Shown piece after piece: positions 54,574-58,967 of a stretch of DNA of 64,000 nt. The stretch is from Novosphingobium sp. Fuku2-ISO-50 (lineage in GTDB: Bacteria > Pseudomonadota > Alphaproteobacteria > Sphingomonadales > Sphingomonadaceae), in contig NZ_KQ954285.1 in the NCBI RefSeq assembly GCF_001519055.1, forward strand, positions 572,678 to 636,677, written 5' to 3'. Made by a program: the position numbers and the translations under genes. A model generated the notes under the pieces. The model did not search any database. It was given only the letters and a program-made list of their open reading frames with translations, and was not told where the DNA came from. Position 1 is the first letter of the stretch. Each line of letters opens with the position of its first letter.

Positions 54574-56053
54574 CGAAGGCATTGCCGCCGTCGACCGAGC
54601 CGTCGGGCCAGCGCTGGGTGATCGTCTTGACCTTGGTCCAGAATTTCACGCCTTCCATGCCGTGCTGGTTGGTGTCGCCAAAGGCCGAGCGTTTCCACCC
54701 GCCAAAGCTGTGATAGGCGACGGGCACCGGGATCGGCACGTTGATCCCGACCATGCCGACATTGACTCGCCTGGCGAATTCGCGCGCGGCATGGCCGTTG
54801 CGGGTAAACAGCGCGACGCCGTTGCCGTATTGATGCTTGCTGGGCAGCGCGACAGCTTCGTCAAAGGTCTTGGCGCGCACGATCTGTAGCACGGGGCCGA
54901 ATATCTCGTTGTGATAGCTGTCCATCGTGTCGGTGACATGGTCGATCAGCGTCGGGCCGACGAAAAAGCCCTGCTCGTACCCCTGCAAGGCAAAGCCGCG
55001 TCCGTCGATCACCAGTTCGGCGCCTTCCTCGGCGGCGCGCGCGATCCATGCCTCGATCTTCGCTTTGGCCTGCGCGGTCACGACCGGGCCGTAATGCGCC
55101 TCGGGATCGGTCGAAATGCCGACTTTCAGCGCCTCGATCGCCGGGATCAGCTTGGCCTTCAGGCGTTCGGCAGTCTCGTCACCGACCGGCACCACCACGG
55201 GCAAGGCCATGCAGCGCTCGCCCGCCGAACCGAAAGCGGCGCCAAGCAGATCGTTCACCACCTGATCGAGATCGGCATCGGGCAGGACGATGCCGTGATT
55301 CTTGGCCCCGCCCATCGCCTGGACCCGCTTTCCGGCTGCCGCGCCGCGCTGATAGACATAGTTGGCGATGTCCGACGATCCGACGAAGCTGACCGCGCCG
55401 ATCGCCGGATGGTCGAGAATCGCATCGACCATTTCCTTGTCGCCATGCACGACCTGAAAGATCCCGGCAGGCAGGCCCGCTTCGAGAAACAGCTCGGCCA
55501 GCCGCAGCGGCACCGACGGATCGCGTTCCGACGGCTTGCAGATAAAGGCGTTGCCCGTCGCGACGGCCACCGCGCCCATCCACAAGGGGATCATCGCCGG
55601 AAAGTTGAACGGGGTGATCCCCGCGCCGATGCCGACCGGCTGACGCATCGAATAGACATCGATCCCCGGCCCGGCGCCGTCGGTATATTCGCCCTTTTGC
55701 GCATGCGGAATGCCGCAGGCGAATTCGACCACTTCGAGCCCGCGCTGAATGTCGCCGCGCGAATCCGCGATCACTTTGCCGTGTTCGCTCGACAAAAGGT
55801 GCGCCAGCTCGGTCATGTGCGCCTCAACCAGTTCCTTGAAACGGAACAGCACGCGCGCCCGCCGTTGCGGATTGGTCGCCGCCCAGGCAGGCTGCGCCGC
55901 CTCGGCAGCAGCAACCGCACGCTCAAGCGCGGCTGCCCCGCCCAGCACGACTTCGGCCTGTACCGCGCCGGTGTTGGGATCGTAGATCGCGCTGCGCCGC
56001 GCCTGATCGAGCCCGGCGGTGCCGCCCGCAATGAAATGATCGATGATGCGCAT
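54554..56053 (-). CDS. mmsA: Methylmalonate-semialdehyde dehydrogenase (CoA-acylating)
   Basis: 499 aa. MRIIDHFIAGG start, ITPFNFPAMIPLWM, MGGAKNHGIVLPDAD and catalytic Cys in SAGERCMALPVVV; C-terminal QHGMEGVKFWTKVKTITQRW is typical of MmsA. Converts methylmalonate semialdehyde to propionyl-CoA in valine and thymine breakdown. Separated from mmsB by about 5 kb, with the LysR gene divergent. Confidence 0.96.
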   Translation of the reverse strand: MRIIDHFIAGGTAGLDQARRSAIYDPNTGAVQAEVVLGGAAALERAVAAAEAAQPAWAATNPQRRARVLFRFKELVEAHMTELAHLLSSEHGKVIADSRGDIQRGLEVVEFACGIPHAQKGEYTDGAGPGIDVYSMRQPVGIGAGITPFNFPAMIPLWMGAVAVATGNAFICKPSERDPSVPLRLAELFLEAGLPAGIFQVVHGDKEMVDAILDHPAIGAVSFVGSSDIANYVYQRGAAAGKRVQAMGGAKNHGIVLPDADLDQVVNDLLGAAFGSAGERCMALPVVVPVGDETAERLKAKLIPAIEALKVGISTDPEAHYGPVVTAQAKAKIEAWIARAAEEGAELVIDGRGFALQGYEQGFFVGPTLIDHVTDTMDSYHNEIFGPVLQIVRAKTFDEAVALPSKHQYGNGVALFTRNGHAAREFARRVNVGMVGINVPIPVPVAYHSFGGWKRSAFGDTNQHGMEGVKFWTKVKTITQRWPDGSVDGGNAFVIPTMG

Positions 56054-56110
56054 GGGGTTGGCTCCTCTGCCCGAATTTTCGTTCGAGAGCGGGCCTGCAC
56101 CCATGAAGCG

Positions 56111-56157
56111 TTGCATGCAATGCCGGAAAATGCGATCCACACCTGCAATTATGCAGG
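56111..56157. promoter_or_regulatory. Candidate LysR operator dyads between mmsA and LysR gene
   Basis: ttgcatgcaa (56111-56120) and cctgcaattatgcagg (56142-56157) are perfect dyads. The second spans the LysR start codon, suggesting autorepression. Confidence 0.5.
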
Positions 56158-57044
56158 CACCCGACTGGAACGACTATCAGGCTTTCCTGGCCGTTGCGCG
56201 CGGCGGGCAGATGGCGCGCGCCGCCGCCGCGATGGGCGTCGATGCCACGACCATCGGTCGCCGTTTGCGTCGGCTTGAAACGCGGCTGGGCGCAACGTTG
56301 TTCGAGCAGACGCGCGAAGGGCAAGTGCTGACCGAAGCGGGCGAAGCGCTGCTTGCCGAAGTCGAGGCCATGGCGCAGGCGGCCAGCCGCATTGCCGAAC
56401 AGGCGGGCGGCGGCGGCCCTTCGGGCCTGTTGCGCGTCAGCCTGACCGAAGGGTTTGCCGGTGCGATCGTCGCCCCCGCGCTCAAGAGCTTTATCGAGGC
56501 GCACCCCCGGCTGACTGTCGATCTGGTTGCCTCGTCGGGCCTGCTCAGCCCGTCAAAGCGCGAAGCGGATCTCGCCGTCACGCTGTCGCGCCCGCGCGCG
56601 GGCCCGGTGATCGCGGGAAAGCTGTCCGACTATGCCTTGCGGCTCTATGCCACGCGCGGCTACCTCGCGCAGAACGGCACCCCGGCCCATGGGGCGGACC
56701 TTGCGCGCGGACACCGGTTGATCGGCTATGTCCCCGATCTGCTTTACGCGCCCGAACTGCGCTATCTTGCCGAATTCGAACCCGGGCTCAGCGCGGTCGT
56801 GCGCTCCCCCTCGATCATGGCGCAGGCGCGGATGATCGCCGCCGGCGCCGGGATCGGGGTGCTGCCGTGCTTCATGGGCGATGCCGACAAGTGGCTCGTC
56901 CCGGTGCTGCCCGAACGGCGGATCATCCGCAGCTTCTGGCTGGTCACGCACAAGGACACGCACAGTCTGGCGCGGGTGCGCGCGTTCAAGGACTGGCTGG
57001 CCGCCCTGACCGCGCGCGAACGCCCCAAGCTGCTTCCGCGGTAA
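56151..57044 (+). CDS. LysR family regulator, probably of mmsA
   Basis: 297 aa. Winged HTH QMARAAAAMGVDATTIGRRLRRLETRLGA (about residues 19-50), then a substrate-binding domain GLLRVSLTEGFAGAIVAP. Divergent from mmsA across about 100 bp with dyads, so regulation of valine catabolism is likely. ATG 56151 precedes the HTH by a normal distance; longer upstream frames lack support. Confidence 0.9.
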   Translation: MQAPDWNDYQAFLAVARGGQMARAAAAMGVDATTIGRRLRRLETRLGATLFEQTREGQVLTEAGEALLAEVEAMAQAASRIAEQAGGGGPSGLLRVSLTEGFAGAIVAPALKSFIEAHPRLTVDLVASSGLLSPSKREADLAVTLSRPRAGPVIAGKLSDYALRLYATRGYLAQNGTPAHGADLARGHRLIGYVPDLLYAPELRYLAEFEPGLSAVVRSPSIMAQARMIAAGAGIGVLPCFMGDADKWLVPVLPERRIIRSFWLVTHKDTHSLARVRAFKDWLAALTARERPKLLPR

Positions 57045-57061
57045 AGCGTTTTGGCGCGTTG

Positions 57062-57222
57062 GAGCCTGATCCGAAAGTCGGCGACGGAGGACTGGCGAGG
57101 GATTTTTCGTGCCAACGAGGAGTGATTGCCGCCGCGATGCGGTTTCATCGCGGCAAAATCACGACGAAACTGGCGCGGGAAAGACCCGCCAGGCCTGACC
57201 CGCAGACTTTCGGATCAGGCTC
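57062..57222. repeat. 161-bp palindromic element between LysR gene and DUF3297
   Basis: Perfect 18-bp terminal inverted repeats (57062-57079, 57205-57222) enclose an internal hairpin (CGCGATG/CATCGCG, 57133-57152) and two copies of actggcg-type sequence. The right arm abuts the DUF3297 stop codon. Possibly a small non-autonomous mobile or REP-like element, or a 3' UTR structure. Confidence 0.8.
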
Positions 57223-57534
57223 TTAGAGCTTCAGGACGGGCGCGTCTTCGCCCAGGTCTTCGTACCAGGCTTCGACTGCGCCGGTCAGCTTGATGGTCAA
57301 GGGATTGCCCTTGCGATCGAACGTGCGCCCGGCCTGCACGCGCACCCAGCTTTCGGACACGCAATATTCCTCGACATTGTGGCGCACCACGCCCTTGAAG
57401 CGGATGCCGATGCCGCGCCCCAGTTTGTCGGCATCGAAAAACGGGCTGCGCGGGCTGATGGCCAGACGATCGGGCGGAAGATCGCCGGTCGTCGGGGTTG
57501 CGGTTTCGGGCGAGGTGTTTTCAGGCTCGGTCAT
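57223..57534 (-). CDS. DUF3297 family protein
   Basis: 103 aa. LPPDRLAISPRSPFFDADKL, GIGIRFKGVVRHNVEEYCVSE and IKLTGAVEAWYEDL match the DUF3297 pattern common in proteobacteria. Function unknown; no motif points to catalysis. Confidence 0.88.
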   Translation of the reverse strand: MTEPENTSPETATPTTGDLPPDRLAISPRSPFFDADKLGRGIGIRFKGVVRHNVEEYCVSESWVRVQAGRTFDRKGNPLTIKLTGAVEAWYEDLGEDAPVLKL

Positions 57535-57604: not shown

Positions 57605-57634
57605 CCAGACAGCAATCTGCCAGACAGCAATCTG
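57605..57634. repeat. Exact tandem 15-bp repeat just upstream of tRNA-Val
   Basis: ccagacagcaatctg occurs twice back to back (57605-57619, 57620-57634), ending two bases before the tRNA. Each copy also contains short arms CCAGA/TCTG(G), so a small hairpin is possible. Confidence 0.85.
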
Positions 57635-57636
57635 GC

Positions 57637-57711
57637 GGGCGCGTAGCTCAGTGGTAGAGCACACCCTTCACACGGGTGGGGTCGCAGGTTCAATCCCTGC
57701 CGCGCCCACCA
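57637..57711 (+). tRNA. tRNA-Val (anticodon CAC)
   Basis: 75 nt with CCA encoded. Acceptor GGGCGCG pairs with CGCGCCC, D-loop GCTCAGTGGTAGAGC, anticodon stem CACCC/GGGTG with loop TTCACAC giving anticodon CAC, T-arm GCAGGTTCAATCCCTGC. Its 3' end is the likely integration target of the adjacent element. Confidence 0.97.
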
Positions 57712-57836: not shown

Positions 57837-58967
57837 TCACGCTCTCTCCTTCTTTTTGCTGGCTCCGGCGCTGAACAGAGACAGCTTGGTCCGCTCCTCG
57901 GCAGCACGCAGACCACGCAATTGCGCCTGGTGAATTTTCTCGGCCGTCTGCTCGGCATGGGTATAAGTTCTGCGCATCAGACTGGTGTCAGACCACCCGC
58001 CGAATTCACCCGCAGCCTTCTCGTCGATGCCCTGCCGCACGTTCATTTCCTGGCCGAAGCCATGGCGCCCGGCGGCATGAAATGGCAGCAGATCGATGCC
58101 AGCCAGTTTGCAGGCCTTGGCCCATCCCTTTCGAGGGCTTGATCGATCAGCGAAACCGAAAACACGCAGATTGTCCTGCGTGCGGTCGAACCCGCGCGGA
58201 TAAAGTCGAGGCAGCGAAGCCAGCTCCCTGACCAATTCCTGTGGAACCGTGATCCATCGATCATCATGCCCCTTCGCCGCCGGGATGCAGACCATGTTCT
58301 GATCCAGCTTCAAATGACGGTCGGGATGCATCGCCACGGCCTGGCTGATCCGCGCGCCCGTCATGAACATGAACATGGCCAAAGCAGCATGACGCCGCGG
58401 CGCGTGCTGGCGGAATTTGAGCAGCCACTCCCAGCTTCCGGGCGTCTTCTTGACCCGGCTTTTCCGACCGCGCTTGAGATCCTGCGCGACCCGCTCCTCT
58501 TTGGAGTAGCCCTTGATGCGTATCGGGGCGCAATGGCCAAGGTCATGCGCATTGTTGATGACAGATCGAACGGGCGTCACGACATGACGGACCCACGTGT
58601 CTGTTGATGCCTCTGGATAGAGCTCCTCGCCCAGTTCACGCACGAGCTTGGGCGTAATGTCTGCGACAGCCATCGAGCCAAGCTTGGTCAGGATTGGAAC
58701 GAGATACCCAGCATCCGCCTCGCTCGGCTTGTAGAGAAGCACAGCATCAGCGAATGTGAACTTGGCTGGCGGCTGCGCCTCAGCATCCTCGCCTAGGACG
58801 TGGCGGCGTATTTGCCTCTCCTCCTCGGCACGGCACCAGTCCCACGCGCCTGCTTCTTCAGATGCGCCAGTGCTGCATCGATAGTAGTCGGTGATGGGGG
58901 CGCCGAGATATTCGACGCGCCCGCGCGCCCACCACGTTGGGCCTCTGCGGAACGGTTCGAGGGGCAT
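57837..58967 (-). CDS. Tyrosine recombinase/integrase
   Basis: 376 aa. Catalytic Arg206 in TGARISQ, Lys232 in AAKGHD, His297-x-x-x-Arg301 in HAAGRHGFG, Trp325 in GGWSD, and nucleophile Tyr335 in RRTYTH. The N-terminal arm-binding part (WWARGRVEYLGAPITDYYR) is typical of sphingomonad integrases. It points toward tRNA-Val, the probable attachment site. Start overlaps the next gene by 175 bp in another frame. Confidence 0.95.
   Translation of the reverse strand: MPLEPFRRGPTWWARGRVEYLGAPITDYYRCSTGASEEAGAWDWCRAEEERQIRRHVLGEDAEAQPPAKFTFADAVLLYKPSEADAGYLVPILTKLGSMAVADITPKLVRELGEELYPEASTDTWVRHVVTPVRSVINNAHDLGHCAPIRIKGYSKEERVAQDLKRGRKSRVKKTPGSWEWLLKFRQHAPRRHAALAMFMFMTGARISQAVAMHPDRHLKLDQNMVCIPAAKGHDDRWITVPQELVRELASLPRLYPRGFDRTQDNLRVFGFADRSSPRKGWAKACKLAGIDLLPFHAAGRHGFGQEMNVRQGIDEKAAGEFGGWSDTSLMRRTYTHAEQTAEKIHQAQLRGLRAAEERTKLSLFSAGASKKKERA

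Follow-up and report, generated by a model that had tools for sequence, protein, structure and literature searches.

The window analysed here, the whole stretch of 64,000 nucleotides from Novosphingobium sp. Fuku2-ISO-50, carries a palindrome of 161 nt (positions 57062-57222, no strand assigned) between two convergent genes. A LysR-type gene on the plus strand (56043-57044) ends 17 bp before the element, and on the other side lies a minus-strand gene, recognised by its open reading frame (ORF) and a domain match, that encodes a DUF3297 protein (PF11730) and reads from 57534 to 57223. Its TAA stop codon, seen as TTA at 57223-57225, follows the right arm of the palindrome directly, just as the preliminary description had stated. 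Because the right arm adjoins this stop codon, the element is expected to be part of the 3' end of the DUF3297 mRNA, and, if it is transcribed, both convergent mRNAs would have a long hairpin at the 3' end. Beyond the DUF3297 gene there is a tRNA-Val (CAC) gene (57637-57711), followed by a tyrosine-integrase gene on the opposite strand (57837-58967), an arrangement that has the layout of a tRNA-integrated island; no second copy of the tRNA-Val 3' end was found in the window at up to three mismatches. A 15-bp tandem duplication, CCAGACAGCAATCTG twice over, lies just upstream of the tRNA-Val gene (57605-57634).

The element is an imperfect palindrome whose terminal 18 bp are perfect, the left inverted repeat (57062-57079, plus strand) and the right one (57205-57222, minus strand) matching in full, and the same ends are found in relatives. 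A repeat finder lengthens the arms to 36 nt at 83% complementarity. The internal pairing that had been noticed earlier is borne out by structure prediction, in which the 161 nt form a single hairpin of 60 pairs at -104.6 kcal/mol (z -11.4 against dinucleotide shuffles with a mean of -56.6 and a standard deviation of 4.2, none of the 200 being as low). Between the terminal repeats lies a core hairpin (57080-57204) that is common to relatives having other ends; the predicted fold places in it an outer GA/GA internal loop (left side 57101-57102, partner 57183-57184) and an inner one (left side 57120-57121, partner 57163-57164). The element is short, has terminal inverted repeats and contains no transposase gene. 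At zero to two mismatches, a 15-base part of the arm is found nowhere in the window except in the two arms, and the one further site at three mismatches is at chance level. No Rfam 15 family matched the element at the gathering score, the one match in the window being a tRNA, and the element region gave only two weak matches (E 1.2 and 4.1).

The preliminary description had proposed counting copies of the arm in the genome. That count is low in the genome of origin, with one full copy and an 83-bp right-hand piece of 96% identity, and it is in relatives that the family becomes evident. The 15-base arm part was found at 14 sites in this genome at two mismatches or fewer, three of them the known ends, versus 5 for the reversed control, and the remaining 11 sites are taken as near chance. 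When the best four candidates per genome were scored, 12 of 195 genomes of the genus matched at E 0.001 or better; the match reached at least 80 bp in 7 of the 12, and the others were short, some of them chance-like. One genome of the genus (G047) has at least 18 full copies, each of 164 bp, and a relative of it (G046) has at least three in addition to many cut by contig ends, both counts being lower bounds from the best 40 of about 50 candidates. Many contigs of the G046 draft end inside the element; the palindrome has probably interrupted the assembly there, which makes the copy numbers too low.

Matches are sparse elsewhere. At the family level 10 of 397 genomes matched, four of them over more than 100 bp, and a class-level search with a Mesorhizobium query matched 13 of 385, three of them over more than 100 bp. 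The element is patchy from species to species, and its carriers include Mesorhizobium jarvisii (L139) and plasmids of Aureimonas sp. AU20. With an Aureimonas copy as the query, 13 sites were found at E 0.001 or better on four plasmid records, one of which is from Agrobacterium. Matches in Aureimonas and Agrobacterium plasmids were obtained with the copies from Mesorhizobium, G456 and Aureimonas, and none in the plasmid search with those from the window, L296 and G047. The phage records and E. coli genomes searched contained no match to the element, and single-end matches in distant phyla were among the matches listed. G047 also holds two 153-bp spans (contig C1, 2075790-2075942 and 2144923-2145075) with inverted ends related to GAGTCTGATTCGAAATTC; such ends recur elsewhere in that genome and perhaps belong to another palindromic family.

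Target-site duplications, which the preliminary description had suggested looking for, are present in the relatives. In a set of 63 copies with distinct flanks, 50 of them full length, identical 3-bp flanks were found on 41 of the 50 full copies, and 40 of those 41 are TNA (TCA 11, TGA 11, TAA 10 and TTA 8, the one other being TTT). The genus also contains IS5-type elements with ends such as GAGCCTGATCCGAAACTA and GAGCCCGATCCAAAAGTT, each equal to the end of our element at 16 of 18 bases. Identical TNA flanks were seen at 16 of 30 such IS loci (929-955 bp), the IS ends having been picked by a script that gave a bonus to equal flanks. The one transposase protein tested matches DDE_Tnp_1 and DUF4096. 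Insertion sequences of the IS1031 subgroup target TNA and make 3-bp repeats, according to the part of the source drawn on here (PMC12016507). The element resembles the IS5 family and its IS1031 subgroup in having ends that start with GAGCC and a 3-bp TNA duplication, whereas it lacks a transposase and its core has no evident relation to the IS interior.

From the inverted ends, the dispersed copies, the TNA duplications in relatives, the same gene pair without the insert in related species (below) and the insertion sequences of the genus, which share the duplication and almost all of the end bases, we consider it very probable that the element is a MITE, a non-autonomous miniature transposon of IS5 type with IS1031-like target choice, the IS1031 subgroup being assigned by the target rule only. 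Several observations count against this reading. Of the 50 full copies, 9 lack identical flanks, and the window copy itself has TTG on the left (57059-57061), one base off the TTA on the right (57223-57225), an imperfect duplication. The usual view of bacterial MITEs is that they are IS elements which have lost their middle. Here the core is unlike the IS interior, so the element did not arise simply by internal deletion from the IS elements that were seen. Also against it, a transposase search of the element's own genome gave no match at E 1e-60, the two DUF4096 ORFs of that genome, both at contig ends, have no matching end, and an intact two-ended partner IS was seen neither there nor in G047, where only fragments were seen. 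As these searches found no matching transposase in its own genome, the window copy may be a relic that is probably no longer mobile.

Comparison with empty sites agrees with insertion at this locus. The convergent LysR-DUF3297 pair is without the insert in all five relatives examined (G128, G036, G013, G073 and G081, out of 30 DUF3297 loci), and the stop-to-stop gap is 18-73 bp in these relatives versus 178 bp, or 161 plus 17 bp, in the window. A short hairpin is predicted in the gap of four of the five, the fifth gap of 18 bp being left out, and the element may have taken over the place of such a hairpin. In the mechanism we propose, an IS5-family transposase would recognise both MITE ends in trans, and the palindrome would have moved into a TNA trinucleotide that was duplicated. 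The triplet hit here is the TAA that ends the DUF3297 gene, and insertion on a stop codon rebuilds it and leaves the protein intact. The earlier suggestion of a non-autonomous mobile element is thus backed by copies, target-site duplications, near-identical IS ends, empty sites and the covariation described below. The family is a new one of a known kind of element, and no account of it was found in searches of open-licence PMC papers. The RIME elements of rhizobia are likewise palindromic intergenic repeats of alphaproteobacteria, a likeness by description only, with no kinship claimed. By description only, too, the element can be likened to QMITE1 and QMITE2 of Coxiella, which are MITEs forming very long hairpins in the portion of PMC5896051 used here.

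The paired arms covary among the copies, as a check proposed in the preliminary description had called for. Taking the structure from the window copy gives it an advantage over slid versions, and relatedness of the copies inflates shuffle tests. Within these limits, 19 of 60 pairs in 12 aligned copies were changed on both sides and still paired, and none of 500 shuffles reached the pair count or the covariation score (slid structures gave at most 8). In 19 cores the same was true of 21 of 42 pairs, again with none of 500 shuffles as high and slid structures at 10 or fewer. The number of further pair types was less exceptional, its observed value being reached by 3 and 7 of 500 shuffles. While the stems change, the outer GA/GA loop is retained in 17 of the 19 copies, and so is a GACG on the right of the inner GA/GA loop. 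The stem changes and the kept GA/GA loops are consistent with the fold or sequence motifs being under selection, in RNA or in single-stranded DNA.

All four TNA triplets read TAA or TGA on one of the two strands, which means that an element inserted into a TNA on a stop codon rebuilds the stop. In order to count such insertions we removed 4 orthologous duplicates from the 63 copies and added 11, giving 70; 6 with flanks shorter than 300 bp were dropped, and the 64 left comprised 56 intergenic copies, 6 in a gene call and 2 without TNA. Exactly on the stop codon of a called gene lie 27 of the 56 intergenic copies, versus 17.9 expected (P 9e-5) from random TNA sites in the same intervals with gene calls from a home-made caller. 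The 142-bp subset from SKS4 gave 4 of 14 versus 3.1 expected, which is not significant. A first, cruder null had given 18 of 50 versus 8.9 for full copies and 8 of 13 versus 2.3 for short ones; the within-interval figure is the one relied on. The excess is modest, and survival of harmless insertions would suffice to produce it. The TNA target rule explains in a simple way why palindromes are found placed harmlessly and exactly at gene ends. The 83-bp piece in the element's own genome also adjoins a TTA stop, that of a 152-aa ORF. On the Aureimonas plasmid pAU20b (L360:1480-1662) the annotated stop of an AMP-binding protein gene reaches 2 bases into the element, the first bases of which therefore help to form the stop.

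Stop codons are also a meeting point with REP sequences, which crowd gene ends and, in the GTAG class, often provide a TAG stop, as set out in the sections of PMC3733652 used here, our source throughout for REPs. Like the GTAG and CGTC super-families described there, the element is palindromic, intergenic and near gene 3' ends; the CGTC-tagged class is reported as frequent among alphaproteobacteria and REPs are reported near the 3' ends of convergent genes, and the GACG by the inner stem, which is CGTC on the other strand, keeps a fixed place in those 17 of 19 copies. That our element is a CGTC-tagged REP-type repeat, perhaps a REP nested in longer arms, is nevertheless very improbable. The REPs reported measure 20-40 bp, carry their tag at one end and have 8-9 bp stems, whereas the element, at 161 bp, is four times too long, its CGTC tag is internal, no GTAG occurs in the window copy, and it has 18-bp transposon-like inverted ends, with TNA duplications in relatives. 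The REP half of the earlier suggestion was rejected on length, ends and duplications. The preliminary description had also allowed that a single copy without covariation would leave a local terminator-like structure, and the presence of a single full copy in the element's own genome, placed between convergent genes, could be taken that way. Dispersed copies and covariation were found instead: full-length relatives with duplications sit at unrelated loci, the insert is missing in relatives with the same gene pair, and positions 56950-57350 contain no T run and 0 intrinsic-terminator sites (a G+C-rich stem followed by a T run). A local terminator, which has next to no probability left, was rejected on these terminator counts and the dispersed copies.

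The covariation of the stems, the persistence of two GA/GA loops, the stop-codon excess and the short hairpins in the same gap of four relatives could also be read to mean that the core is a structured RNA useful to the host, or a bidirectional 3'-end element selected at gene ends, with mobility secondary. Yet the copies are patchy between species and a terminator-like site is absent; the excess on stops, besides being open to the explanation by surviving harmless insertions, is not seen in the SKS4 subset, and covariation in multicopy palindromes could stem from transposition or from the needs of a DNA hairpin. We regard a primarily host-serving core as distinctly improbable.

Besides the full copies, the set of 63 includes 13 short ones of 33-49 bp, and in 6 of these the flanks are identical. 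One short copy in G047 (L180) is flanked by TTA on both sides, and at the orthologous site in G046 two contig ends carry 116 bp and 93 bp of the long element. The scar at L180, 33 bp long, is made up of the first 29 bases and the last 11 of a full copy (L010), overlapping by 7 bp, as expected from a deletion between short direct repeats. In a strain that is Mesorhizobium-like in the region (L087) a short remnant lies where M. jarvisii has 160 bp. Full copies can shrink by internal deletion to a hairpin scar of 33 bp, as at this orthologous site in two relatives, and such scars show one way in which small 3'-end hairpins can arise.

The ends of the element appear to be separable from its core. 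Four genomes (G622, G460, G456 and G736) and the Aureimonas plasmids have the same core in elements of 161-162 bp with ends of the kind GAGCCTGTTTGRRAATYC, and identical TNA flanks were found on 6 of 9 examined copies of that kind. Conversely, a 142-bp element in the metagenome-assembled genome SKS4.bin33 has the first kind of ends and an interior that aligns poorly with that of the window copy. An IS with GAGCCTGTTTGRRAATYC-type ends was found at none of 14 DUF4096 loci (G460, G622, G456, G808 and G736), and no pair of such ends was found in the loci collected by that stage, one viral contig having a single end only. Across genera and families the core stays conserved and the ends differ, which raises the question of what the core is selected for. 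One answer, which we put forward tentatively and regard as possible though rather doubtful, is that the core is a persistent structured module under selection, either as RNA or as single-stranded DNA. It would have been refitted with IS5-type ends of at least two kinds, perhaps three, and have so changed its transposase, with the same ends carrying a different core in another bacterium, and with landing on stop codons and shrinkage to 33 bp as its usual life cycle at gene 3' ends. Because all these ends start with GAGCCTG, slow divergence of the two arms together is no less possible than a genuine exchange of ends.

A covariance model matched 26 of 385 genomes of the class at E 0.001 or better, with scores above 95 bits in three only (the genome of origin, G456 and G460) and of 36-64 bits in the other 23. 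The weak matches, inspected in overlapping sets of 12 and then 23 loci, lie in other alphaproteobacteria and have a motif order similar to that of the core; they are a lead and are not counted as members. In two genomes (G237 and G250) they have ends of the kind GAGCCTGTCT with CTAG at both sides. Several loci, L288, L296, L313, L295 and L306 among them, hold long hairpins with a core-like order of motifs and different outer ends, and some of the weak-match hairpins are followed by a second, REP-like hairpin.
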